Positions 6,313 to 33,282 of a stretch of DNA of 33,328 nt are shown here, piece after piece. Under the pieces are notes generated by a model. That model ran no database searches and had not been told where the DNA came from. It worked only from the letters and a program-made list of their open reading frames with translations. Position numbers and translations under genes: made by a program. The stretch is from an uncultured Fibrobacter sp. (GTDB taxonomy: Bacteria > Fibrobacterota > Fibrobacteria > Fibrobacterales > Fibrobacteraceae). Where the stretch lies: NCBI GenBank assembly GCA_947306305.1, contig CAMZGI010000005.1, positions 1 to 33,328 on the forward strand, read 5' to 3'. Position 1 is the stretch's first letter. Every line of letters begins with the position of its first letter.

Positions 6313-8025
6313 ATGTTTAGTTTGAATAAAAAGATATTTCTTGGATGCTCGTTGTTGCTTTCTTTGTACGCGTGCTCCAATGACGATCCCAATGCAGTGG
6401 CACCGCTTGCTATTCAAATGACGGAAACTGGAGAAAGTTCCGCGAAGACGAGTGAAGCATTCAATTTGAATAACGTTCGTGTTGATGGCCGCGCGGTAAC
6501 TTTGTCGCGAAAAGAAAATGGTTCGGCGACGGTGTATCACCTTTATGAATTAGCTTCGAAGGTCAGAATGTATGAGCTGGATTCGGTGACTCTTGAACCG
6601 ACTGGCGATATCTGGAGAAGCTTTATTCTTGATACGAATGGAAACTTTCGCTTCGATAGCCTCTCGCTGCATAGCCCTTATGTGATGATTGAAGCGGAAC
6701 CGTCTAATCCAGAATTGGGCATGAACTTGAATATTAGCACAAGAGCAATTATCGATGTGCGAAAGTCAAAGGACGTTAGCGTCAATGTATTGACGTATCT
6801 TGAAAGTTTCCGCTTGCGTCATTTGGTTGCGTCGGGGGTTGCTTTTGATGCTGCCAAAACTCAGGCGATGCGTGAAGTTCTGGATGCATTTGGCTTGTAT
6901 GATGAACCGTTAGATTACGATAAAAAAGACAATGCCCACGCTCAAGAATATCTGGATTTTGCGGGATTCTTCTATATCAATATATTTTTGGATTCCGTAG
7001 TGACAGTGTTTAGCCAAAGTGGCATGTTGAGAAATATCGATAGTTTGTCTTCGCAATCGCTTGTCAACTGGGCTGTTTGCGATATTGATGCAACCAATAA
7101 ACAATATGTGGACTATGCTGCGAATTTCTTGTCTTCTTTACATGGATTTGGCAAGTGTACGCCAGAACTTGAAGGCACTAGTTTTGAGGTGACTGATGGC
7201 TATTATCATTTCCAGTGTACGGGAAATCAGTGGAAAACCTCTTTACAGGGATTTAAGCAAATTGATTTTTCTGAAGGCGAGATGACGGATAGCCGTGATG
7301 GAAAAACCTACAAGACTGTTACGTATAACATTAATGGCTCCGCGCAAACTTGGATGGCTGAAAATCTGGATTATGGAGATGGTGTGCATAAGGAATGGTG
7401 CTTTGAAATCAAATCGGATAATAGCAGTTTAAATTCAGTTTTATTCAAAAATGTTTTTCCTGCGGAATCATCGGGCTGTAGCGCTTACGGTGGCTTGTAT
7501 AGGGCTTATGATGCGTTGATGCTAGATACAACGTTCTTGGTTGAAAATGCGCTAGATACATGCATTGCCAATCGTCTGAAAAATTGGCTAGGGAATAGTC
7601 CTGTTGCTATTGATACTTTAGAAGTGCTCGAAACCTGCTATTATGATTTTTTGAACGAAGATAAGGTTGTTCATTGGGCTGATTCTGTTGAAACAGCTAA
7701 CGGCCATGTTCAAGGAATTTGTCCTGATGGGTGGCATATACCGACAGGAGATGAGTGGAAAGCTTTGTGGACGCTTTTGGACGGTGTGAGCTTTGGTGAC
7801 GATCTGTTGGGTGACCCTTCGGGATTTGGGTTGAATGCAATCTCTCAAGAATCCAAAGAAAGTGGTTTTGTTCAAGTAAAAGAGGATGTTTATTTTGCTA
7901 TGAAACCGCAATTTTTACCTGATCCTCAAATAAAGTATTGGTCTTGGAGCTATAGACCGCATAATCCTCAATTCGGATACAGAGTAGGCCCAGCTTTCTC
8001 GTTCATCCGTTGTGTCAAGAATTAA
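6313..8025 (+). CDS. FISUMP domain-containing lipoprotein, paralog 3
   Basis: ATG at 6313 after AGGGGGAAAT; lipobox-like LYACS; QTWMAENLDY, GICPDGWHIPTGDEW, C-terminal IRCVKN. Confidence 0.85.
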   Translation: MFSLNKKIFLGCSLLLSLYACSNDDPNAVAPLAIQMTETGESSAKTSEAFNLNNVRVDGRAVTLSRKENGSATVYHLYELASKVRMYELDSVTLEPTGDIWRSFILDTNGNFRFDSLSLHSPYVMIEAEPSNPELGMNLNISTRAIIDVRKSKDVSVNVLTYLESFRLRHLVASGVAFDAAKTQAMREVLDAFGLYDEPLDYDKKDNAHAQEYLDFAGFFYINIFLDSVVTVFSQSGMLRNIDSLSSQSLVNWAVCDIDATNKQYVDYAANFLSSLHGFGKCTPELEGTSFEVTDGYYHFQCTGNQWKTSLQGFKQIDFSEGEMTDSRDGKTYKTVTYNINGSAQTWMAENLDYGDGVHKEWCFEIKSDNSSLNSVLFKNVFPAESSGCSAYGGLYRAYDALMLDTTFLVENALDTCIANRLKNWLGNSPVAIDTLEVLETCYYDFLNEDKVVHWADSVETANGHVQGICPDGWHIPTGDEWKALWTLLDGVSFGDDLLGDPSGFGLNAISQESKESGFVQVKEDVYFAMKPQFLPDPQIKYWSWSYRPHNPQFGYRVGPAFSFIRCVKN

Positions 8026-8088
8026 GTCAAGAATTGAATTTGCTCCCTCATTTTGTTTAGGAGGAATGTTAGGAATAAAAGAGGGACA

Positions 8089-8118
8089 GGAGACGGGCTG
8101 CGGCCCGCCTTCCTTTTT
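8089..8118 (+). terminator. Rho-independent terminator after the FISUMP cluster
   Basis: GGAGACGGGC-TGCG-GCCCGCCTTCC followed by TTTTT. Confidence 0.75.
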
Positions 8119-8138
8119 ATGTGTCGCTCCACTTTGTG

Positions 8139-8307
8139 TCATGACCGCTGCATCTCGGTCATGACAGAACGTAAACGTTCTGTCGCGACTCTCGATTTGC
8201 ATGTCATTCCACTTCGTGGCATGATCGCTGCACCTCGGTCATGACAGAACATAAATGTTCTGTCGCGACCCTCGGTTTGCGTGTCATTCCCGGCTTGACC
8301 GGGAATC
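8139..8307. repeat. Two 80-bp tandem repeat units, each with two hairpins, followed by a third extragenic palindrome
   Basis: Copies start at about 8140 and 8220; hairpin B is GACAGAACGT-AA-ACGTTCTGTC in unit 1 and GACAGAACAT-AA-ATGTTCTGTC in unit 2; then GTCATTCCCGGCTTGACCGGGAATC at 8283-8307. Confidence 0.85.
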
Positions 8308-8368
8308 TTCATGCGTAAATATTGTATCTTTACTCTATCTTGCGCTTTATGCGCGAAAAGGATTTGTT

Positions 8369-9124
8369 ATGAAACCTGGTAAGACCGAACTCCGTTTGAA
8401 TGCAGAAATTGAGAAGCGTGGCGCATTGTTTGCTGTGCTGTTGGATCCGGATACTTCGGACGAAGCCGCATTTGTAAAGGCTGGCTCTTTGGCTGCAGAA
8501 AATGGTGCGGACCTCCTTTTGGTGGGCGGTTCTTACTTGGGCAACTTTACTCTCCCTAAACAGGTCGCAGCTCTCAAGGCTGCTGTCGATTTGCCGGTAG
8601 TGCTTTTCCCGGGTGGTGCGTCGCAGGTTGTCCCTGGTTTTGACGCGATGCTCTTTATGACGCTCGTGAGCGGTCGCAATCCGAACTACCTCATCGACGA
8701 ACAAGTTCGTGGTGGCGCGTTGGTGCGTGCCCTCAACATGGAAGCCATTCCGACGGCATACCAGCTCATCAATAGCGGCAAGCGCACGACGGTCGAATAC
8801 ATCAGCGGCACGATGCCTGTGCCGGCAAACAAGCCCAAGCTCAGCATGGTGAACTCCATTGCCGCAGAACTCATGGGCATGCGTTACGTTTACCTCGAAG
8901 CAGGGAGCGGCGCCGAAGAACCTGTGCCTGTCGAACACATCGCCTACACCCGCAAGGCGACTGAAATGACGATTATCACTGGCGGCGGCATCAAGGATCC
9001 GCAAACCGCAGCCGTCCGCGTTGCAGCCGGCGCTCAAATCATCGTGACCGGAACCCTTTGGGAAAAGGTGAACGATCCGGCGTTGCTCAAGGAATTCGCC
9101 GCCGCTATCCACGTGAAAGGCTAG
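8369..9124 (+). CDS. Geranylgeranylglyceryl phosphate synthase family (PcrB/GGGPS-like) protein
   Basis: LFAVLLDPD, ADLLLVGGSYLG, VVLFPGG, MRYVYLEAGSGAEEPV, IITGGGIKDPQTA; start taken as ATG 8369. Confidence 0.8.
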   Translation: MKPGKTELRLNAEIEKRGALFAVLLDPDTSDEAAFVKAGSLAAENGADLLLVGGSYLGNFTLPKQVAALKAAVDLPVVLFPGGASQVVPGFDAMLFMTLVSGRNPNYLIDEQVRGGALVRALNMEAIPTAYQLINSGKRTTVEYISGTMPVPANKPKLSMVNSIAAELMGMRYVYLEAGSGAEEPVPVEHIAYTRKATEMTIITGGGIKDPQTAAVRVAAGAQIIVTGTLWEKVNDPALLKEFAAAIHVKG

Positions 9125-9285
9125 CACTCCTTTTTATAGAAAGTCCCCAATCTATCATTTAAAATTATTAATCTCATTGAAAGAATGTATTAGTCAAAAC
9201 GGCTAATTCCATCTACATTTGTGCCCGAAAAAAAGAGCTCTTGAAAAATTCATCGTTATAAAACAATCTTAAGGAGATTGAATCT

Positions 9286-9813
9286 ATGAAGTTCAAGTTC
9301 ATTGCCGTGGCACCCATTGTTGTCGCTACAGCTATGTTGTTTACGGCATGCGAAAAGGTTGAAAACTGCCACTATGATGAAGCAACCAAGACGCTCAAAT
9401 GCCAAGGCCAGACTTACGCTACTGTCGAAACGGGTGGTCGTATTTGGATGGCTGAAAACGCAAACCTTGTGAATTTTGATTCTAGCTACTGCTACGGCGA
9501 TAATTTGGACAACTGCAAAAAGTATGGTCGTCTTTACGACTGGAAGTCTGCAAAGGATGCATGCCCCACGGGCTGGGAACTTCCGAAGCAAGCGGATTTT
9601 GAACAAGCTGATTTGAAGTCGCTGAACATCAAGATGGATGGCTTCCGCTACTACGACGGAAAGTACGTCGATCAAAACGTGAGCGCCAGTTTTTGGACTG
9701 CCGATGCGTTTGACGATTCCCGCGCGGTCATGGTGCGTGTGCTGGATAAAGTAACTTACGAGCACTTTAACAAGGGCATAGCCGCTTCTGTCCGCTGCGT
9801 CAAAGTGAAATAG
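9286..9813 (+). CDS. Short FISUMP-domain lipoprotein
   Basis: MLFTACE lipobox-like; GGRIWMAENANLVNF, YGRLYDWKSAKDACPTGWELP, AASVRCVK; RBS AAGGAG. Confidence 0.8.
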   Translation: MKFKFIAVAPIVVATAMLFTACEKVENCHYDEATKTLKCQGQTYATVETGGRIWMAENANLVNFDSSYCYGDNLDNCKKYGRLYDWKSAKDACPTGWELPKQADFEQADLKSLNIKMDGFRYYDGKYVDQNVSASFWTADAFDDSRAVMVRVLDKVTYEHFNKGIAASVRCVKVK

Positions 9814-9877
9814 AGCTTCAAAGTTGTCAAGATTTTTAGAATCTTAGCCGATCTTTTTTGCTGAAAAATAATAAGGA

Positions 9878-9912
9878 GCCTTGCAGTTCAATCGCTGTAA
9901 GGCCCTTTCTTT
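9878..9912 (+). terminator. Rho-independent terminator
   Basis: GCCTTGCAG-TTCAATCG-CTGTAAGGC followed by a T-rich tract. Confidence 0.7.
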
Positions 9913-10031
9913 TGCATGAACGCCGAAAAATACGCATTATTATGGATGCCGCCCGTCTTTTTTATTTATAAATACATATATTCAAAATGTGAATGCCTTG
10001 CGGGTTGCAGGGCATCGTTTAGAGGCTTACG

Positions 10032-10346
10032 ATGAAGAATCTTGTAATTGTCACTTATGTGCTCAGGGGGCTTGGCTTTGTTTTGGTCTTGCTTTCGCTT
10101 TTCGGCCACAGCATCATTTTGAACGTTTTCCCGGGGCTTGAGGGAATGTCTATCAACCCGATTTTCTATTCGGGCATTGTCGTTTATTTGGTTGGCGCAG
10201 CCATTTACTTTTTCATCAACAAAAAAGAAAAGGCGGACCGCCGCCGTCGCGAAATCGAGGAATCCTACAAAAAAGCGGGTCTCGACGATGACGAGGATGC
10301 AGCCGAAGGTAGCGACGAAGACAGCGAAAATTCTAACGAAAAGTGA
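10032..10346 (+). CDS. Small membrane protein with an acidic C-terminal tail
   Basis: Two hydrophobic segments, then KKAGLDDDEDAAEGSDEDSE. Confidence 0.65.
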   Translation: MKNLVIVTYVLRGLGFVLVLLSLFGHSIILNVFPGLEGMSINPIFYSGIVVYLVGAAIYFFINKKEKADRRRREIEESYKKAGLDDDEDAAEGSDEDSENSNEK

Positions 10347-10354
10347 TTGCGTGT

Positions 10355-11278
10355 ATGAGCGATTTGATGATTGAAATTGATCACCTGCACAAGACGTATC
10401 GCAGTGGCTTTACGATGAAGCCGAAGCTTGCGCTTAAGGACGTGAGCTTTAATGTCCAGGCAGGTCAGGTTTATGGTTTTATCGGGCCTAACGGGGCGGG
10501 CAAGTCCACCACGATTAAGGTCTTGACGGGGCTTTTGAATTATGATTCGGGCGCGGTGCTGGTGAACGGGATTTCTCCGCGTGAAACGAAGAGCCGTCAG
10601 TACATTGGCTATTCGCCGGAACAGCCGTATTTTTACGATTACCTCACGGGTCGCGAGCTTTTGCGTTTTTACGGCAAGCTGGTAGGGCTCAAGGGTGCCG
10701 GGCTTGAATCCCGCATTGGCTGGGCTCTGGAACTTTTGCATGCGAACAAGGACTGGATTGACCGCCGCTTGCGTTCGTATTCCAAGGGCATGATGCAGCG
10801 CGTGGGCATAGCCCAAGCGATTCTTGCAAAGCCGAAGCTTTTGATTTTGGACGAGCCGATGAGCGGCTTGGACCCGATGGGTCGCCGCGATGTGCGCGAA
10901 GCGATTATGGAGCTGAACCGCGATGGCGTGACGATTTTCTATTCGAGCCATTTGCTCTCGGACGTGGAATCTATTAGCCACCGCGTGGCGATGATTGTCG
11001 ATGGGCGCATCGTGCGCGAAGGAACTGTCGATGACATTACGGAATCTTGCGGCGTGGAATATCACGTGCGGACTCGCGAAGCGATTATGGAATCGGAATT
11101 GCCGCGTGGCGTGACGCTTGCGGGGCATCCGCAAGAGTTTATTTGCTCTGACGATGTCGCTCGCGACCGTTTTCTCGCTTACTGCCTCTCTACTGGCATC
11201 GCTGTTGAAAAAATGGACCACAAGCGTCCGAGTCTCGAAGATATTTTGACGGAGGAAATTGCCCGTGCAGACGCTTAA
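10355..11278 (+). CDS. ABC transporter ATP-binding protein
   Basis: Walker A GPNGAGKST, signature YSKGMMQRVGIA, Walker B LLILDEPMSGLDP, switch His in SSHLLSD. Confidence 0.95.
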   Translation: MSDLMIEIDHLHKTYRSGFTMKPKLALKDVSFNVQAGQVYGFIGPNGAGKSTTIKVLTGLLNYDSGAVLVNGISPRETKSRQYIGYSPEQPYFYDYLTGRELLRFYGKLVGLKGAGLESRIGWALELLHANKDWIDRRLRSYSKGMMQRVGIAQAILAKPKLLILDEPMSGLDPMGRRDVREAIMELNRDGVTIFYSSHLLSDVESISHRVAMIVDGRIVREGTVDDITESCGVEYHVRTREAIMESELPRGVTLAGHPQEFICSDDVARDRFLAYCLSTGIAVEKMDHKRPSLEDILTEEIARADA

Positions 11279-13692: not shown

Positions 13693-14697
13693 ATGGCATC
13701 AGAAATTGAATCTCTTTTGGAATATGCCCAGAATGTCGGGGCAAGCGACTTGATTGTGACTGAAGGGGCGCCTTCGGCGGTTCGTTTGGCAGGGCGCGTT
13801 TGCGCCATTCCCGATTCTTCGGCTTTGCCGTTTGGCTCGCTCGCTGAATTTTTAGGCTCGCTCGATGGCGAGTCGGGTACGTTTGTTGGCGGCCCTTGGC
13901 TGAACGCCAAATGGCGTGTAAAGTATTTCCGCGAGGCTCTGGGCAACGCGGCGATTTTCCGCCCGCTCATGGCGGAGTGCCCTGATTTCGCTTCGCTTGG
14001 GGCTCCTGCGTCGCTCGATAATTTGTTAGGGCTGAGTTCTGGGCTTGTCATCTTTAGCGGCCCTGTATGCTCGGGCAAGACGGTTTCGGCTACATCGTAT
14101 GTATCGGCGATGTGCTCGTCTAGCATTTTGCGTTTCTGCAATTTGGATTCTGGCCGTGAACTGCCTATTAAAACGGGCGAGAGCTTGATGCTCCAAAATA
14201 CGGTCGGCTCGACCTCCGAAAAGTTGGAGCAGGGGCTTCGCAGTGGAACGGATTTGTTCTGGGTGGGCGATTTTGAAGAAGCGACTTTGCTTCCCTTGTT
14301 GCGTGCTGCAGAGGCTGGTGCATTGGTCGTTGTGAACGTGACGGCTGGCAATGCTGTGGGTGTCATTGATACGCTTTTGTCGGCTGCACCTCCAGAAAAA
14401 CGCGACCTTGTCCGCACTATGCTTGCATCTGTTCTCAAGGCGATTGTCGTCCAAAGGCTTTTGCCCTCGGCAGAAGGTAACGGTTCTGTGCCTGCTTGGG
14501 AAATCCTTTATAACACGCAAAACGTGGCATCTCATATCCGCAGTGGCGATCATTTCAAGCTCCCGTCTGTAATTGCAGCTTCTAGTTCAGAAGGCATGCT
14601 TTTGATGGATGATAGCCTTGTACAACTTGTTCGCACTGGCTATGTGACAACTGAAGAGGCTAGTAGGTATGTTTCCAATCCCGCACGGCTGGCTTAA
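13693..14697 (+). CDS. Divergent PilT-like ATPase, second copy
   Basis: GPVCSGKT at 14059-14082; FWVGDFEEATLLPLLRAAEAGALVV; ASVLKAIVVQRLLP. Confidence 0.75.
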   Translation: MASEIESLLEYAQNVGASDLIVTEGAPSAVRLAGRVCAIPDSSALPFGSLAEFLGSLDGESGTFVGGPWLNAKWRVKYFREALGNAAIFRPLMAECPDFASLGAPASLDNLLGLSSGLVIFSGPVCSGKTVSATSYVSAMCSSSILRFCNLDSGRELPIKTGESLMLQNTVGSTSEKLEQGLRSGTDLFWVGDFEEATLLPLLRAAEAGALVVVNVTAGNAVGVIDTLLSAAPPEKRDLVRTMLASVLKAIVVQRLLPSAEGNGSVPAWEILYNTQNVASHIRSGDHFKLPSVIAASSSEGMLLMDDSLVQLVRTGYVTTEEASRYVSNPARLA

Positions 14698-23009: not shown

Positions 23010-24077
23010 ATGGAAATTAAATGGCTTAACCCCGATGCAAAGTTTGACCGTCTTGTTTTGGCGGGTGATATCGGTGGTACGAATACGAATCTTGGTCTTG
23101 TGGGCTACAAGGATGGCAAGTTTACGCTCATTCTCGAAACCGTTTGCCCGAGCCAGTGCATTGAAGGGCTCGACGCTCCGATTCGCGAAACGCTCAAGGC
23201 TGCTGTCGAAAACCGCGCTGATTTGAAGCCGTCCCACATCTGCATCAGTGCTGCAGGCCCCGTTGCAAACAACAAGTGCGTCATGACCAACCTCCCGTGG
23301 AGCGTCGATGGCGACGCCATCACGAACGCGACCGGCATCCCGACGCTTGTCATCAACGACTTTATGGCCATCAGCTACGGCATCCCGACACTCGACGTCG
23401 ATGACCCGAAACAGATTTTCAAGCTCGTGCACACCGACGGAAGCACGCCTGCTCCGCAGGCGACGACCAAGGCCGTGATTGGCCCGGGCACCGGCATGGG
23501 CGTTGGATTCCTCGCCTTTGACGGACAAAAGTACATCCCGGCTTGCTCCGAAGGCGGCCACTCCACGTTTGCCCCGTTCGACAAGGATTCTCAGGACTTC
23601 CGCGACTACATGGAAAAGCGCATCGGTACAGTGCCGGGCGTTGAACCGCTCGTCTCTGGCATGGGTCTTGCTCATCTCTATGAATGGTGGCGCGACACGA
23701 AGGGCGTTCCCGATAACGAAGCCTTCAAGAAGATCGAAGAAACCGATTGGCACGACCGTCCGAAGTACATCAGCCGTGCAAGCGACACTGACCCGGTTGC
23801 AGCCGAAATGATGCGCTTGTTCGTGAAAATGCTCGCCCGCTTCGCCAGCGACGCAGCAACGCTGTTCCTCCCGCTCGGCGGTTTCTACCTCGCAGGTGGA
23901 ACGGTCCAGAAGGACCTCCGCTGGCTCGAACGCGATAACTTGTTCATGACCTGGTTCGAAAAGAACTACAACCCGAACATCCGCCCGCTTTTGAACAAGA
24001 TCCCGGTCTATGTGATCAAGGATTACAGCATTAGTTTGTACGGTGCTGCTAATGCTAGCTTGAATTTGCAGAAGTAA
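23010..24077 (+). CDS. glk: Glucokinase
   Basis: LAGDIGGTNTNLGLV, ISAAGPVANNKCVMTNLPW, LVINDFMAISYGIP, IGPGTGMGVGFL, EGGHSTFAP. Confidence 0.92.
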   Translation: MEIKWLNPDAKFDRLVLAGDIGGTNTNLGLVGYKDGKFTLILETVCPSQCIEGLDAPIRETLKAAVENRADLKPSHICISAAGPVANNKCVMTNLPWSVDGDAITNATGIPTLVINDFMAISYGIPTLDVDDPKQIFKLVHTDGSTPAPQATTKAVIGPGTGMGVGFLAFDGQKYIPACSEGGHSTFAPFDKDSQDFRDYMEKRIGTVPGVEPLVSGMGLAHLYEWWRDTKGVPDNEAFKKIEETDWHDRPKYISRASDTDPVAAEMMRLFVKMLARFASDAATLFLPLGGFYLAGGTVQKDLRWLERDNLFMTWFEKNYNPNIRPLLNKIPVYVIKDYSISLYGAANASLNLQK

Positions 24078-24086
24078 ACAGTACAC

Positions 24087-24151
24087 GTCATTCCGGCCTT
24101 CGAGCCGGAATCTGCGAAGACTGTGTCATCCTGAGCGAAGTCGAAGGATCT
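24087..24151. repeat. Two adjacent dispersed extragenic palindromes
   Basis: GTC-ATTCCGGC-CTTCGA-GCCGGAAT-C and GTC-ATCCT-GAGCGAAGTCGA-AGGAT-CT. Confidence 0.7.
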
Positions 24152-24173
24152 AGAGCGTAACTTTTGTGATGTC

Positions 24174-24206
24174 GCCCCGGACTTGTTCCGGGGTCGTCTT
24201 TTTTTA
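24174..24206 (+). terminator. Terminator between convergent glk and toxin genes
   Basis: CCCCGGA-CTTGT-TCCGGGG followed by TCGTCTTTTTTT. Confidence 0.75.
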
Positions 24207-24533
24207 TCGCATCAGGCGATTCCAAAGGGCATCTTCGAGGTCTCGCCGTGAATCGACAACCGCGAGAATTACAATTTGATTCGCTTGCTTGCGGTAAAAG
24301 ATTCTCCAGGGGGTGATAGATAATTCGCGGTAGCCACCAATCTGTAACGCCTCTAGCTCAACAGGAATTTTGCCCAAATCAGGGAACCGCTCAAGAAGCT
24401 GACATTCCTTCTTGATTTTTGCGAAAGTTTCGCGTGCATTTTGCATGCTGTCCGCTGCAATGAACGAGACGATAGACTTGAGATCGAATGCTGCCGATTC
24501 AGACCATACAACTAGATACTTCTTACTTGGCAT
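24204..24533 (-). CDS. Type II toxin, RelE/ParE family
   Basis: About 109 aa; LLERFPDLGKIP, YRELSITPWRIFYRKQANQIVILAVVDSRRDLE; overlaps the antitoxin gene. Confidence 0.87.
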   Translation of the reverse strand: MPSKKYLVVWSESAAFDLKSIVSFIAADSMQNARETFAKIKKECQLLERFPDLGKIPVELEALQIGGYRELSITPWRIFYRKQANQIVILAVVDSRRDLEDALWNRLMR

Positions 24534-24798
24534 TCAGTTCGCTCTCCAGAGAATCGAATAGGTCTTTCTGGTGGATGACTCGACCGCGGGCAACCTCGCC
24601 TTCGCTCTGTGCAAACAGCTTGAAAAGCTTTAGCCCGTCCTGCATTTTTTGGTAGGTGTCAACGTCGAGAATTACTCCGCGAGCCTCTCCATTCTGCGTT
24701 ACAATGTAAGGGGCATGTGATTCGCATACGTGGTCTAAAACCTTTGCTGCATTAGCCTTGATGTACGAAATAGGCTTGATGTTTTTGATTGTAGACAT
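24523..24798 (-). CDS. Type II antitoxin, Phd/YefM family
   Basis: PISYIKANAAKVLDHVCESHAPYIVTQNGEARGVILDVDTYQKM. Confidence 0.88.
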   Translation of the reverse strand: MSTIKNIKPISYIKANAAKVLDHVCESHAPYIVTQNGEARGVILDVDTYQKMQDGLKLFKLFAQSEGEVARGRVIHQKDLFDSLESELNAK

Positions 24799-24892
24799 GT
24801 TTCCCCTTTCTTTGCTGAAGGACTGAATTTGATACTAAATATAGTCTTATTTGCGAGTGGATGCAATGGGGGTGGGGTGTGGATTTGTGGGG

Positions 24893-24919
24893 CAGTTGTT
24901 TCCATTTTGGAAACAACTG
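24893..24919. repeat. Perfect 11-bp inverted repeat with 5-nt loop
   Basis: CAGTTGTTTCC-ATTTT-GGAAACAACTG between the TA operon and the HNH gene. Confidence 0.85.
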
Positions 24920-25051
24920 GAGGAATTTTGAAGAAGTTGTTCGCTTTTTGCAGAATTTAGGCTGTTGTAATTGCTTATCGCATCAATAAGTAGAATAAAT
25001 TCACTATTATTGCGTAATAATTAAACCATTTTGAATAAGAGCCTAAAAGAT

Positions 25052-26560
25052 ATGATAGATGTTAATCAAGAATATACTCGCGAAGTTGATTGTGAATATA
25101 AAGGTGAAAAATATAAAGTTCGAGATAATGGGGCTATCTTTCGTATGGCGAGAGAAGGTATGCCTAAACGTCCTAAAGATGAAGTATGGACTTTTGGTGA
25201 ATCGATAAATCGTGGCTATGCTTGCTTTTGTGGTGAGGCCGTGCATCGGATTGTTGCTGTTGCTTTTTGGGGAAATCCGCCTACTAAACAGCATGTGGTG
25301 GATCACATTGATACAAATCGTCAGAATAATCGTCCTGAAAATTTAAGGTGGTTAACCAAGCTTGAAAACATTCTACTAAATCCGATTACGAGGGCAAAAA
25401 TTGAATATTTGTGTGGTAGCGTAGAAGAATTTTTGGAAAATCCATCACAACTCAGTGGACATGAAAATGATGATGCCAATTTTGCTTGGATGAGAGCTGT
25501 TTCCCCAGATGAAGCACGAAATACTTTGATTAGTTGGGAAATAATGTTAAATAAGCCAAGACCGGAAATTAGAAGTAGGGGTAATCCCATTGAAGAATGG
25601 ATATTTGGACAGAATAGGGCTAATCAAAGAGAATTGAATTTTATTGATGATGTTGAATCTGTAGAAAATGATGATAATCAAAAAATAACGTTAGAAGAAG
25701 ATGGTGACATTCATCCAATATTATCCTCAAAAGTTAATGAAAGGTTAAAGGAACGTCCTATTTCCAAAACAGAGTTTATGGCTGCAGTTTTGCAAATTTG
25801 TGAAAATAAAGGCTGGAAGTACAAGAAATACTATAAAGCTAATGGTTGGAAAGCGGATATCCTTATTTCAACAGAAAACAGAAGTGTAGCAATTTCTGCC
25901 TTTAATTCGTCTGCGTCTGCTACGAAGTCTTTGCCTCAAATAAGTGTAGAAGGATTGACGTGGTATGGATTGATTCTTTCGACGAAAAAAGATGATATTT
26001 TGGGTTTATCTTGCTTTAGATTGCATCGAAATGAGAATGCAATGGAAGTCGTTGTAGCAGAAAATAATGTGTCGTTGGAATCGTTCTTAAAGAAAGCTTT
26101 GGAGAACAAGATTGAACATTTGACTAAGGCTAAAATAACGGCGGTAGATGTGCTGTTCGAACAAGTAGAGTGTTACTTTTGCCATGAACCACATTTTATT
26201 CATTATGTACGCTATTTGATAGATGAAAAAGGAAAGAAACGAGATCTTGCCTATGTTGATGATTATGATTTGCCCGATCTTCGATTTGGAGAAGAGATAT
26301 TGGAAGTTATTAAATATTATATAGATAGTCATCCAGAGAAGGGAATTGTAATGGGTGAAGTGAAAAAACGTTATAGCAGGACGATGGAACAAAGCTATAT
26401 GTCTTTTGGATGTCCTAAATGTGATGGGATTTTAGGTGATTTTTATCTAAATGATTTAGAGGCTTGTTTGATATATGAAACTGACGAAAAAAAGATGAAT
26501 CGAATTCAATTGAAAACACCCTTTGAAGTAAAAGTGAATGAATGGATTGTGAAGGATTAG
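25052..26560 (+). CDS. HNH endonuclease-domain protein with possible CoiA-like and zinc-ribbon C-terminal regions
   Basis: HNH_3-like VHRIVAVAFWGN...HVVDHIDTNRQNNRPENLRWLT; CYFC and FGCPKCDGILGDFYL Cys pairs; start could be TTG 25031 or ATG 25052. Confidence 0.75.
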   Translation: MIDVNQEYTREVDCEYKGEKYKVRDNGAIFRMAREGMPKRPKDEVWTFGESINRGYACFCGEAVHRIVAVAFWGNPPTKQHVVDHIDTNRQNNRPENLRWLTKLENILLNPITRAKIEYLCGSVEEFLENPSQLSGHENDDANFAWMRAVSPDEARNTLISWEIMLNKPRPEIRSRGNPIEEWIFGQNRANQRELNFIDDVESVENDDNQKITLEEDGDIHPILSSKVNERLKERPISKTEFMAAVLQICENKGWKYKKYYKANGWKADILISTENRSVAISAFNSSASATKSLPQISVEGLTWYGLILSTKKDDILGLSCFRLHRNENAMEVVVAENNVSLESFLKKALENKIEHLTKAKITAVDVLFEQVECYFCHEPHFIHYVRYLIDEKGKKRDLAYVDDYDLPDLRFGEEILEVIKYYIDSHPEKGIVMGEVKKRYSRTMEQSYMSFGCPKCDGILGDFYLNDLEACLIYETDEKKMNRIQLKTPFEVKVNEWIVKD

Positions 26561-26795
26561 ATTTTGCATAGTTTATTAAAGATTCTTTGAAAAAGGAAGA
26601 TGTTTGTTGCGGGTGGTATATTAATGTAAAAATGAAATTATATATTTGTGTAAATGAAGAAAATGAATAACCTTAACTACAAGTGTTGATTTAATTTGAC
26701 AATATATGTGAGTTTCACTACCATGCGCGACCACCTTCTTCCGTTTCATGCGAACGGACAAGTAACCGTAGGATAAAAGGAAAATGGTATAAAAT

Positions 26796-29700
26796 ATGTC
26801 TATCTTTACATCCATATTGAATGCAGTTGTAAAAATGATATCTCCAATATTGAAGATTCGAAATATTTTTTCTTTTAAAGAATTAAAAAGAAAACTTGAT
26901 GATAGCATTTTTAAGTTAGGACCTCGTTATACGCCCGAATTGCATGTGAATTTGCCAATTGAAGATAATTTTATAATGCTTGCAAAAGATGGTAATGAAT
27001 TTCTTGAAAAAATGTATCCATATTTCAATCTACTCAGCGAAGCGAGTTCTAAAATAAAGAATATTGGCGATGACCAATATGATGGTCATATCAGTGATTT
27101 TCTGCTTTGTGTCGAACGTGTAAAGGGTTTTTATTTCTATTGCGAAAAAAATAAAAGAAATAAAGTATTACTTGATTCGGTAATAAAAGAAATCGTAAAT
27201 GCTAAATCACTCCTAGCAAATATTTACAATTGCGGCGTAACTTTAAAAAAGCAAAATACCCCCAAGGAAATTGTGGATCAAATACGTTATAATGAAAGGA
27301 GTATTTCGGAGATTGGTGATCGATTGCAAGAATTATATAAATTCTTCAAAGAAGGACCAGGACGTTTTTTGAGTGCTCAAGTACTGCTACTTACAGGAAA
27401 AGCTGGTTCTGGAAAATCTCATTTGCTTGCTGATGTTGCAAGAAAAAGACTACAATCGAGAAAATGGACGTGTCTTCTTTTAGGAAATACCTTTGCAAGT
27501 GGCGATTTATGGAAACAGTTTTTAGAAAAATTATCTATAAAATAGAGTAAAGGAGTATTTCTTTTTCTGCTTGATAAGTACGGTTGGTTTCGGGGATCCC
27601 GTTCTTTAATTTTTATAGATGCACTTAATGAGTGTGATGTTCCTAATTTTTGGGAGCAAAATCTAGAATCCTTTTTTTACGATATTCAACAATATCGTAA
27701 TGTTGGAGTTGTTTTAAGTATTCGCTCTGAGTATATAGATTACGTCTTGACCAAACAAATAAAATCTAAAGTTAATATTGTTGACCATGAAGGTTTTAAA
27801 GGAGCTGAGTTTGAAGCCGTTAGGCGTTATTTTAAATGTTATGAGATTAATCTGCCGAATACACCTTTGCTTAATCCCGAATTTTCAAACCCTTTGTTCT
27901 TGAAACTTTTCTGTGAAATGTTAAGAAACAAAGGATTGAGAGAGATGCCTAGTGGCTTTGACAATTTTCTTGAAATTTTTAAGAATTATATTGATGACCT
28001 TAATGAACGAATTTCAAAAAAACATGCAACATTGCCTTCGCTAAACTTAATAAGAAAATCAATTGAGAATCTTGCTTTGGAAATGCAAAGACGAGACGAG
28101 GAGCTGTTGCCTAGCGATGATACACTAAGCATATTAAATACGGTTCTTTCTGGTTCAGGAATAAATGCGACGGATCTTTATAAAGATTTGGTGTCTGAGG
28201 GAATATTGGTTGAGTTTTTTGATAAAGAAAAGAATGCGAAAATTTATTTTGCATACGAAAAATATTATGATTTAATTGTTGCAAAAGCATTAGTAGAAGC
28301 GGAAAAAAATGATGATGACATAAAGCTAATGTTTGAAAAAAATGGTTCGTTATATAAGTATGTCGTGTCTGAATATGGATTTAGTAGATATCAAGGACTT
28401 TTGAATGCATGGGCCGTTTTTTTGCCAGATGTATATGATATAGAATTGTTTGATGTTGTTCCTGACAATACATTGTCATCAATAAAAGAGGCATTTTTAG
28501 ATGGCTTACTATGGCGAAAAAAAATAAATATTGATTCAATAAAGAATTATACGAATAAAGAAATTTTGGCAGATGATTATTATAAATTTAAATGGTTTGA
28601 TGTCTGCTTACTTTTGTGCGCTAAATCAGAATGTTCCTTGAATAGTGATTTTCTTCATGAAAAATTATTCCCATTAAGCATGGGTATTCGAGATGCTGAA
28701 TGGTCTATTTTTATAAGTACACAAAATGACTCTGATAGAAATAATGTTAAACGAATAATTGATTGGGCTTGGTATAACGATGATTTTGAATTATTGTCTG
28801 ACGAATCAACTCGTTTACTTGGACAAATGTTGATTTGGTTTTTAACATCAATGAATAGAGAAGTTAGAGACAAAGCATCAACAGCTCTTGTAAATTTGCT
28901 AAAAAATAAAATAGATGTTTTGATTTGCTTATTAGATAAGTTTAAAGATGTGAATGATCCGTATGTTTTACAGAGAATGTATGCGGTTGCTTTTGGCTGT
29001 GTAACAAATAGTTTTAATAGGGAAAGTATAAAAAACTTGTGCGAATGTGTATAAAAATATTTTTGAATCTGTAAATGTTGTTCCTGATATTTTACTACGC
29101 GATTATGCTATGAATACAATTGAATATGGAAGACATTTAGGGTTAAAATTTGATTTCGACATAAAGAAAATTTATCCGCCATATGGCAGTGCCATGCCTG
29201 CGAATTTACCTCCAAATAATGTTGTTGATGCTAACTTGATTCCTTATGGAGAAAAGGACATTGCTTCTCCAGAATATGCAATAAATATGATTCTGCATTC
29301 CATGACAACAGAATATGGTCGTGGAACATCGCATTATGGCGATTTTGGACGATATGTTTGGGATAGTGCTTTTAATGATTGGGGTGTTGATACTAATTTA
29401 TTGAGTAATTACGCTGTAATGTGGATTCTAAAAGAAAGTGGGTATGACTATAGTATTCACGGTGAATTTGATATGAGTGTATCTCATGGAGAACGATTCG
29501 GAAATGTTTGTGAACGGATAGGAAAAAAGTATCAGTGGATTGCTTTCTATGATTTACTTGCTAGAGTATCCGATAATTGCCAAATGAAGGAAGGTGTTTA
29601 TAAAGGTAGTTTCGAACCATTTGTAAGAGATTTTGACCCAACAACTATAAAAAAATCCGTTTATAACGCTGATGAATCTTTTTATTTTGGTGTAATGAAA

Positions 29701-30507
29701 AAATTTCATTGGAATCAAAATAATAGAAAATGGATTGTAAAAAAGAATAACTATCCTTCTGTAGGAAAATTTCTTTTTGAAAAAGATGTCGATGACGTAG
29801 AATGGATTATTTTGAATAAGTCAATACATTTAAAACAACCAGATCGATTGGATGGAATGTTCGAGCCAAAGAAGGATTTCTTTTGTGATGTAAACAGTTA
29901 TATTATGACAGATAACGATTATAATTCCTTTAAAAGTTGGTCAAAAAAGCAGAATTTTTATGGGATGCGAATGCCAGATTTCCATCAATGTTACAATGTG
30001 TATTCTAGAGAATATTGTTGGTCTAAAGCTTACGAGTCAGAATATGGCGATGACTATGATTGGAAAACAATCCGCGATAAAGCGGAAAGAGATATCTCTG
30101 TTGTTGCTCTAACCTCATACAACTACTATTGGGAAAATGAATATGATCACTCAAAAAAGAGCGTTTTCTCGTTTATAAGGCCTTCCAAAGAGTTGTGTAG
30201 AATAATGAAAATGCATCAGGGAATCAAAGATGGTGAGTTTGTTGACAGTTTTGGCCTTGTTGTCTGCAAAAATCCGTCTATAAATGAAAAGCACCCTTCA
30301 TGTTTGATGGTTAGAAAAAAAGATTTTTTGAATGCTTTGAAAAATAATGGACTTAGGATTGTATGGACACTTCTTGGAGAAAAAAGAATAGATTCTTTAA
30401 ATGATAAAGATCGTAATGCATGGATGACCTTCTCTGGAACAGGGTATATGAGGCTAGGTAAGCCTTGTATTAAAATGAATTATTTTGTGAATTATGTAAA
30501 AAAATAA
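26796..30507 (+). pseudogene. Avs-like STAND P-loop NTPase, interrupted by an in-frame TAG (27543-27545) and a frameshift near 29046-29051
   Basis: GPRYTPELHVNLPI; Walker A GKAGSGKS (27396-27419); Walker B LIFIDALNE (27606-27632); VVLSIRSEYID; NVCERIGKKYQWIAFYDLLARVSDN; track ORFs 26796-27545, 27747-29054 and 29047-30507 read as one protein if the two lesions are repaired. Confidence 0.75.
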
Positions 30508-30719
30508 AAGAGGGAAGTGGGTAGCTGAAAAAAAGTATTGTGAAAAGCAAATCGTGCTTCCAACGAAGATATGGACGCTCATATTTCTAAGGTTTACGAA
30601 GTGCTTTTTTGTTTAAAAAGCAAGATGCAATAGATGCGAATTGAACTGGTTTAGCGAAACTGCAAGAAATTGAGAATGAAACGAAATATTGCTTGCTGTA
30701 GTGAATAAATGTGTAGAAG

Positions 30720-30881
30720 ATGAAAAATACTAAGGAAAAAGATGTTTTTTATTCGCAATTTGGCTACGGAGTATTTGATTTGTGTTTCTGCTGTGAGGAT
30801 TTCGGTCAGAGTGTAGAAATACGTTATGAAGACGAAAATGTATGGTTGGTGCAGAAAATGCAGTTATTAAGAAAAACTTAA
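30720..30881 (+). pseudogene. Truncated RhuM-like N-terminus (53 codons)
   Basis: VEIRYEDENVWLVQKMQLL resembles the RhuM start (VEVRxEDETVWLTQxQMAELF); ORF ends at once. Confidence 0.5.
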
Positions 30882-30933
30882 CAACTCAAAACCAACTATC
30901 CAGAATTTTCAGATAGTTGCGTTTTCCCCCACC

Positions 30934-31971
30934 TCACCCTTCCTCCCTTTCATCCTTCAGTCTATACCGTTTGCTTCTGCCGCCTTTGTTGTTCGTCTGC
31001 AAAATTCCTTTGTCCATAAGACTTTGGATTTCGCGGAGGGCGGTGTCGTGGCTGGTGTTGAAGAATGCGGCGGCTTCTTTGGCGGTGAAGGGTTGGGCGA
31101 TTCTTCCGGCTAAAATTTCGTCGATGAGCTGTTGTTCGCGTTCGCTGAAGGTGGTGCTTGCGTGGGCGTTGCGGAACTGGATGCGGCTGATTTCGGAGGC
31201 GAAAAGTTGTTCGCTATCTTTGATGGCGTCTCGCATCATTTGCAGGAACCATAAAATCCATTCGGTGAGGTCACCGCTTGCGGCTTGTGTGCGCGAGAGG
31301 ATTTTGAAGTAGTCGGCTTTGTTGTCGCTGATTTGCTTGTTCAGTGCGTATTGGCAATGCGTTGTGCTTTCGGCGCGGGCGAGTTGCATCGCGGTGATGG
31401 CGCGGGCGATTCTGCCGTTGGCGTCGGCGAAGGGGCGGATGGTCAAAAACCAAAAGTGTGCGATGGCGGCTTTGATGACTCCGTCCATGTTCGATTTTTC
31501 GAACCACGAGATAAAACTTTCCATTTCGCTTTGGAGGCGTTCTGGATTCGGGCCTACAAAGTGGAGCGTTTTTTCGTCTAATGTTGTCTGTACTTCGCTG
31601 GGAGTTTCGCGGTAGTGCTTGACTTTGTTCTGACCCATGGCGGCGTGCCAGTTGAAGAGTCTTTCTTCGGTCAGGGGCGAAGCGGCGTTCTGTATGGCGC
31701 CGATGTAGTTCTTGATGTAATTTTCGTTGCTCTTGCTTTTGAGTTCCACTTCGGTGAGGACTTTCGCCGCGTCGAGCGTGTAGCCATCGATGGCGTAGTT
31801 TGCAACGATGTCATCGGCGATGAGTTTTGCTTCGATGTCCTTGAGTCCGCAGATTTGCATGATCCCGATGAGTTTTCCTTCGGCGAGTCGCGTTTGCCCA
31901 AGTGCGTTGAGCACCTTGGGGGAGTCGAAGCGGAATCGTGTCCAGTCGGGGAATTGGTGGATGTAGAGCAT
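30934..31971 (-). CDS. Fic family protein (DUF4172-type) with degenerate Fic motif and C-terminal winged-helix-like domain
   Basis: HQFPDWTRFRFDS; AIAHFWFLTIRPFADANGRIARAI; C-terminal FTAKEAAAFFNTSHDTALREIQSLMDKGIL. Confidence 0.88.
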   Translation of the reverse strand: MLYIHQFPDWTRFRFDSPKVLNALGQTRLAEGKLIGIMQICGLKDIEAKLIADDIVANYAIDGYTLDAAKVLTEVELKSKSNENYIKNYIGAIQNAASPLTEERLFNWHAAMGQNKVKHYRETPSEVQTTLDEKTLHFVGPNPERLQSEMESFISWFEKSNMDGVIKAAIAHFWFLTIRPFADANGRIARAITAMQLARAESTTHCQYALNKQISDNKADYFKILSRTQAASGDLTEWILWFLQMMRDAIKDSEQLFASEISRIQFRNAHASTTFSEREQQLIDEILAGRIAQPFTAKEAAAFFNTSHDTALREIQSLMDKGILQTNNKGGRSKRYRLKDEREEG

Positions 31972-32088
31972 AAGTTCGAAGTGGTTTGCCTAAATATATT
32001 TCTTTTTGCTGCTTTTCGTTTGGATGTTTGGGCGTCGTGGTGTTGAATTGAGAAAAAATGTGTTGAAGTGCTTGATTCTGCACTTGAT

Positions 32089-32328
32089 TTACATACTAAA
32101 AAAGGTCATTATGTGTTTTAATATGTAATTGGCCGTTTGTTACTTTGTGTGGTTACATACTAAATTGTCGATTTATGGTGTTTAGTATGTAATTTTTAGT
32201 GCAAATAGCTACTTTAGAGGGCCTTTTTGTTGAAAGATTGCTTTAAAAAGCTGTATTTTGGCTTTTTTGAGCGGATTTTCATCTTTTTTTACATACTAAA
32301 TGACGATTTTCCTGTTTTAGTATGTATT
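32089..32328. repeat. Three 40-bp palindromic elements (32089-32128, 32153-32192, 32289-32328)
   Basis: Identical left arm TTACATACTAAA in all three; right arms TTTTAATATGTAA, TTTAGTATGTAA and TTTTAGTATGTAT; loops of about 15 nt differ. Confidence 0.9.
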
Positions 32329-32439
32329 AGAACAAAGTATGCGGCATTAATTCGCCTCAAAAACGTGTTGGAATCGTATAATGCGCCCAATTTTTTCAAC
32401 GCTCGTCCTGTCCGTTCTTTATTTTGATAAATTTAAGCT

Positions 32440-33282
32440 ATGCAGAAAATCGATACTTGGTACAAGGCTCAGGGCAACTGCCCCAATGAAGAATATGAAA
32501 TTGCAAGCTACCTGCTTTTCGAAGCGGGCGTGGCTACGTTGGAAGAACTGGATCCGGTGACGGAAGGTCGCACGGAGTTCTGTTTTTACACGGGCGACAA
32601 GGCTGAACGCGACCGCATCGTGGAGGAATTTCCTCAGTACAACTTCACGGTGACGGAAGAGCCTGCAAAGGATTGGGACAAGTGGTGGCGCGACCGTGCG
32701 CAGCCGGTGGCTGTGAGCGAGCATCTTTGGGTGCGTCCGCCTTGGGTGGAATTTGCGCCGGAAGATCCGGAAGCGGTTGTGCTTGAACTCGAAGCGAAGA
32801 CTGCTTTTGGTACGGGTGAGCACGAGACGACGAGTAGCTGTGCCGCGTTGATGGAAAATATTGATTTTAACGGCAAGACGGTTCTCGACATTGGTACGGG
32901 AACGGGAATCTTGGCGATGTTTGCGCGTCGCAAGGGCGCTAGTTTGGCGGTGGGTACGGAAATCGACCCGCTCACGATTCCTTGCATTGCTGAAAACTTT
33001 GAACGTAATGGTTTTGGCGAAAGCGACTGCGTGCTCGGATTCTTGGATGCGTTCAAGGACGGAACGAAGTTCGACGTGATTCTCTGCAACATGATCCGCA
33101 GCGAACTTTGGCCGTTGCGCGATGATATCGAGGACTTGCTTGCGGAAGGCGGCGAACTGATTATTAGCGGTCAGCTCGTCACTGAAAAGGATTACATCCT
33201 CAAGTGGTTCGAAGAAGCCGGCTTCAAGGTCTCTGTTGAACGCGAAAAAGGCGAGTGGTGGAGTGTGCTTGCGCACTCCTAA
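32440..33282 (+). CDS. prmA: Ribosomal protein L11 methyltransferase
   Basis: WWRDRAQPVAV, AFGTGEHETTSSC, VLDIGTGTGILAMFA, DVILCNM. Confidence 0.93.
   Translation: MQKIDTWYKAQGNCPNEEYEIASYLLFEAGVATLEELDPVTEGRTEFCFYTGDKAERDRIVEEFPQYNFTVTEEPAKDWDKWWRDRAQPVAVSEHLWVRPPWVEFAPEDPEAVVLELEAKTAFGTGEHETTSSCAALMENIDFNGKTVLDIGTGTGILAMFARRKGASLAVGTEIDPLTIPCIAENFERNGFGESDCVLGFLDAFKDGTKFDVILCNMIRSELWPLRDDIEDLLAEGGELIISGQLVTEKDYILKWFEEAGFKVSVEREKGEWWSVLAHS

Follow-up and report, generated by a model that had tools for sequence, protein, structure and literature searches.

An intact HNH nuclease gene beside a broken, effector-less Avs2 gene in a variable defence hotspot of Fibrobacter

Overall organization of the locus

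The locus lies in a stretch of 33,328 nucleotides (the window; contig CAMZGI010000005.1 of assembly GCA_947306305.1, forward strand) from a rumen Fibrobacter, whose assembly comprises 2.9 Mb in 388 contigs and is 70% complete. The gene order is glk, a ParE/YefM pair (minus strand), the HNH gene (plus strand), a 235-bp spacer, an NTPase gene (plus strand), a Fic/DUF4172 gene (minus strand) and prmA. The same-strand arrangement and the length of the spacer agree with the initial annotation, and its proposal of a candidate defence locus is supported. The features are as follows.

23010 to 24077, plus strand: left anchor, glucokinase-like gene (glk), named from sequence reading; present in 57 of 61 genomes of the genus
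24204 to 24798, minus strand: ParE/YefM-type toxin-antitoxin pair (Pfam), left part of the hotspot; 96–100% identical copies beside glk in genome G117
25052 to 26560, plus strand: HNH nuclease gene, intact, 502 aa, with ATG start at 25052; relatives with 62–64% identity share this start
25238 to 25369, plus strand: HNH_3 domain, aa 63–106 (Pfam PF13392, E 1.5e-17), with the motif HRIVAVAF..VDHIDTNRQNNRPENLRW intact
25838 to 26458, plus strand: CoiA-like C-terminal region, aa 263–469, from profile and hhalign comparison; the E-x-Q of CoiA is replaced in all members
26171 to 26182, plus strand: first Cys pair, C374-x2-C377, invariant in an alignment of three homologs
26411 to 26422, plus strand: second Cys pair, C454-x2-C457, invariant in the same alignment
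26561 to 26795, no strand: spacer between the HNH and NTPase genes, 235 bp, 31% GC
26796 to 27545, plus strand: Avs2 pseudogene, piece 1, with the short N-terminus, a helical region and Walker A (PADLOC Avs2, E 3.2e-37)
27396 to 27419, plus strand: Walker A, GKAGSGKS, in piece 1
27543 to 27545, plus strand: in-frame stop TAG breaking Avs2; the frames of relatives are open at this site
27546 to 29054, plus strand: Avs2 pseudogene, piece 2, with Walker B and the start of the sensor (PADLOC Avs2, E 4.9e-155); 67–68% identity to G077 and G102
27606 to 27632, plus strand: Walker B, LIFIDALNE, in piece 2
29030 to 29054, plus strand: frameshift zone, with the shift near 29047; the pieces meet at profile position 886/887
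29047 to 30507, plus strand: Avs2 pseudogene, piece 3, the C-terminal sensor (PADLOC Avs2, E 6.7e-113); 82% identical to locus L020
30934 to 31971, minus strand: Fic (DUF4172) gene (Pfam), right edge of the hotspot; homolog in 12 of the 12 relatives whose interval was read
32440 to 33282, plus strand: right anchor, prmA-like methyltransferase gene, named from sequence reading; present in 55 of 61 genomes of the genus

The spacer at 26561–26795 shows no sign of an effector remnant, and positions 26640–26800 have no second copy elsewhere in the host genome. A scan for promoters and terminators gave signals no better than those of shuffled sequences. The spacer between the NTPase and Fic genes (30508–30933) carries a short ORF at about 30720–30880, which on reading resembles a truncated RhuM N-terminus and has no match in the compared loci of relatives. 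Elsewhere in the window, positions 13693–14697 encode a type II/IV secretion ATPase (T2SSE, Pfam E 3.4e-9).

The HNH protein

The ORF of the HNH protein spans 25031–26560, and an alternative, in-frame TTG start at 25031 is possible. The HNH_3 domain scores 63.4 bits against a curated Pfam cut-off of 24.8, and the HNH motif is invariant among homologs. The sole relative in the Protein Data Bank is I-HmuI (1u3e, E 2e-5), which is matched via this domain. Roughly 80–100 further conserved residues follow, and then the C-terminal region with its two Cys pairs, which the initial annotation had described correctly. A Chryseobacterium protein shares the N-terminal module (45% over 217 residues), joined to a different C-terminus.

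The HNH protein has no match to Pfam CoiA_nuc at E ≤ 1, and its C-terminal region matches no Pfam family. On the other hand, a profile built from four sequences of this region finds a Shewanella CoiA-family protein with an hmmsearch E value of 5.5e-23 (a small-database value); the match to the CoiA-like protein of a sister strain is weaker (E 3.9e-11, likewise a small-database value), and the hhalign probability with these two proteins is 98.9. A stand-alone form of the region is found in L026, an unannotated 4.2-kb faecal record. The HNH protein resembles the CoiA family in the strand pattern of the C-terminal core, the Cys pairs and a [KQ]-x-R-[YF]-S-x-T ... C-x2-C block. It differs from the family in lacking CoiA_N, in the replacement of E-x-Q and in the HNH domain fused in front. 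Opposite the EIQ of the Shewanella protein in the alignment, the HNH proteins and L026 have SAF/N, SAY/N or NVC/K stretches, and E-x-Q of the CoiA nuclease core is absent from all four members of the profile. Since the CoiA-like region lacks this motif, cutting, if any, would be expected from the HNH domain.

The AlphaFold model has a mean pLDDT of 37, too poor for a fold search. Only residues 240–290, approximately, reach pLDDT values of 62–83, and their alpha-beta-beta-beta-alpha-beta order would be compatible with a restriction-nuclease core. The gene is open and under purifying selection, with a dN/dS of 0.13–0.16 (0.16 against L016; one pair has saturated synonymous sites). In E. coli, phage defence has been attributed to a CoiA-domain protein (PMC9519451), which by analogy makes a defence role plausible for the HNH protein. 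The protein is most likely a stand-alone nuclease, perhaps directed against foreign or phage DNA.

The Avs2-family NTPase

The NTPase, which had been described as Avs-like, is specifically an Avs2: its three pieces match the PADLOC Avs2 models and NCBIfam NF041813 in consecutive order. Taken apart, the pieces score 102, 492 and 351 bits with NF041813, a whole-protein model with a cut-off of 1000 bits, the gene here being broken. Both Walker motifs of the STAND core are kept, and the PADLOC models cover all three pieces, including the Avs2-specific body and the C-terminal sensor; the intact relative in L020 matches Avs2 with 1032 bits. In the Avs2 family, the phage protein that is sensed is the large terminase. 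The window NTPase is like Avs2 (AVAST type 2) in its STAND NTPase, its Walker A and B motifs and a sensor region present end to end. It is unlike Avs2 in lacking an N-terminal effector, a feature that is usual and perhaps not defining, and in being broken. The reading frame is interrupted by the TAG and by the frameshift near 29047, and this copy of Avs2 is dead, the breakage probably being recent.

The short N-terminus without an obvious effector, also pointed out in the initial annotation, is confirmed. Approximately 41 residues precede GPRYTPELHV at the start of the Avs2 body, and no domain, a protease included, is found before the body. The intact relatives also have about 41 residues here, so the absence of an effector characterises this Avs2 subgroup and did not arise by loss in the window. 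In comparison, eight plasmid Avs2 homologs have roughly 120–200 residues before the body. The body also begins near residue 43 in PADLOC model PDLC02165, so the form with the short N-terminus is probably already in databases. The first 18–20 residues show moderate hydrophobicity (mean 0.45–0.6) and amphipathicity (moment 0.4–0.6); that they form a short amphipathic helix acting at the membrane is a guess.

An Avs2 homolog from Haloplanus (L027:4786–8979), annotated as "HNH endonuclease", was considered as an HNH-Avs2 fusion and rejected, as Pfam finds no HNH domain in it. Its N-terminus resembles a PD-(D/E)xK nuclease on reading of the sequence, and the HNH label is probably a misannotation.

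Distribution of the HNH and Avs2 genes

Among 168 genomes of the phylum, the window's genome is the only one with both the HNH gene and Avs2. With the C-terminal part of the HNH protein as the query, full-length relatives are found in G132 and G073 only, and G057 gives a weak extra match (E 3.7e-4) covering part of the C-terminus. The N-terminal query adds a decayed copy in G075 (L065:9281–9955), which has an internal stop, is truncated, and adjoins a Fic gene of the kind present in L016. Searches of genome contigs with the HNH protein and its alignment find none beyond the two Fibrobacter relatives G132 and G073, and searches of viral contigs find no relatives.

A conserved HNH/Avs neighbourhood, the check named beforehand, is not observed; the outcome that the initial annotation had set as refuting a split system, homologs rarely adjacent, is what these genomes show. 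None of the three other carriers of the HNH gene (G132, G073 and G075) has Avs2 nearby or anywhere in the genome. The close, intact Avs2 genes of G077 and G102 are preceded by hsdS and followed by PDC-M62A/B, and neither genome (0 of 2) has the HNH gene near Avs2 or elsewhere. The absence in G102 is firm, as its assembly is 100% complete in 9 contigs. The sample is small: besides the window it holds three loci with the HNH gene and two with an intact Avs2, and the latter pair is near-identical and represents approximately one lineage. A search of the literature collection used finds no paper on HNH proteins with AVAST or STAND proteins, nor on defence loci of Fibrobacter.

The interval between glk and Fic-prmA

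The interval from glk to Fic-prmA is a Fibrobacter defence hotspot with exchangeable cargo (window positions 24077–32440; loci L028–L039). In relatives that keep glk and prmA near each other and in this order, 1.4 to about 29 kb separate the two genes. In G082, Fic alone lies between them. G117 shares the toxin-antitoxin pair and the Fic gene (97%) with the window, whereas the position of HNH and Avs2 is taken by type I R-M and RhuM genes; the two genomes share sequence up to about window position 24922. Other loci carry type I R-M genes (L031–L035, from ORF reading, with one hsdS checked), a Tmn-like YobI NTPase (L030), PDC-M62A/B (L033), and a caspase-domain protein followed by a CoiA-like protein (L034 of G064, 7884–10393).

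In L035 (5047–9555), a 1502-aa fusion of a CBASS-effector-type HNH and a NACHT-like NTPase is located beside type I R-M genes. As in the window, an HNH nuclease and a NACHT-like NTPase are found together in the glk-prmA hotspot. However, the two are truly fused in L035, and the HNH domain is like those of CBASS-effector endonucleases, whereas that in the window is of the HNH_3 type.

The GC content is 36% for the HNH gene and 32% for Avs2, compared to 53–56% in flanking genes. Since the cargo of the hotspot is exchangeable, the adjacency of HNH and Avs2 is explained without a shared function.

Interpretation of the locus

We consider it probable that the locus holds two separate cargo genes that arrived independently in the hotspot, namely a dead, effector-less Avs2 and a live HNH nuclease that most likely stands alone. 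Their adjacency is most likely that of chance neighbours, not of a two-part system. Each gene would have been acquired separately into the interval between glk and Fic-prmA; the two share one strand and a similar GC content, so they may also have arrived jointly. In the HNH protein, the CoiA-like, Cys-paired C-terminus would recognise or hold DNA, perhaps foreign, and the HNH domain would cut it. An intact Avs2 of the effector-less subgroup would, as judged from its family, bind a phage protein and oligomerise. Its output could come from the amphipathic N-terminal helix at the membrane or from an unlinked partner.

The initial annotation had proposed that the HNH protein could be the separate effector of a split Avs. 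The two genes are indeed on the same strand and 235 bp apart, the Avs2 has no fused effector, and trans effectors are known from Avs1, whose NTPase carries a protease that activates a nuclease encoded separately upstream (PMC12799240). As in those pairs, the nuclease gene in the window lies upstream of the STAND gene. However, the Avs1 nuclease is an MBL-fold proenzyme and the protease is fused to the NTPase, whereas the window has an HNH protein, no conserved pairing, and an NTPase missing the protease domain that the Avs1 mechanism requires. Moreover, HNH and Avs2 never co-occur or adjoin in the other genomes of the phylum examined, and an intact HNH gene accompanies a dead Avs2 or none at all. 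A trans effector is therefore highly improbable here. The lesions in Avs2 could instead be assembly or sequencing errors in an intact gene. The fragmented assembly and the low dN/dS of the Avs2 pieces (0.15–0.28) are in favour of such errors, but the stop codon and the frameshift are independent lesions, unlike in kind, and the neighbouring genes are open, which makes this explanation quite unlikely.

For the HNH protein, the alternative is a selfish gene resembling a homing endonuclease, not a defence nuclease. HNH_3 is typical of phage homing endonucleases, the top PADLOC match is 'homing endonuclease', I-HmuI is the only relative of known structure, and among the phage matches listed nearly all cover the HNH part only. 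Against this, the protein has about 400 further residues including the CoiA-like region, no gene is visibly interrupted in L015, L016, L065 or the window, and the company consists of toxin-antitoxin, Fic and other defence-type genes. A selfish gene is likewise quite unlikely. It is also conceivable, though doubtful, that the locus holds two undescribed variants. One would be an Avs2 subgroup that needs no fused effector and acts via its short N-terminal helix or via an unlinked partner; the other would be an anti-phage nuclease made by a single gene, whose HNH domain replaces the lost cutting of the CoiA-like region.

With two separate cargo genes as the preferred reading, the locus is ordinary as a system, and the effector-less Avs2 subgroup and the HNH/CoiA-like fusion are modest variants. 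The candidate "split Avs" is thereby removed before it is copied into annotations, and the case illustrates how misleading adjacency can be in defence hotspots. One such variable hotspot is mapped here for Fibrobacter, and the intact effector-less Avs2 of two relatives (G077 and G102) and the HNH/CoiA-like fusion are leads for bench work.

Neighbours of the intact Avs2 genes

In L020 (8555–15160) and L021 (4990–11592), PDC-M62A (AAA) and PDC-M62B (HNH) come directly after an effector-less Avs2, at a distance of no more than about 20 bp, and the surroundings are a type I R-M locus. PDC-M62A/B was considered as a partner of the intact Avs2 and rejected, as relatives of M62B are found in 17 further genomes without a close Avs2; its position, too, is more likely a matter of packing. 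For most of their length the Avs2 proteins of L020 and L021 are near-identical, but they diverge sharply in the last 280 residues or so, a pattern resembling a recombinational exchange of the sensor end.
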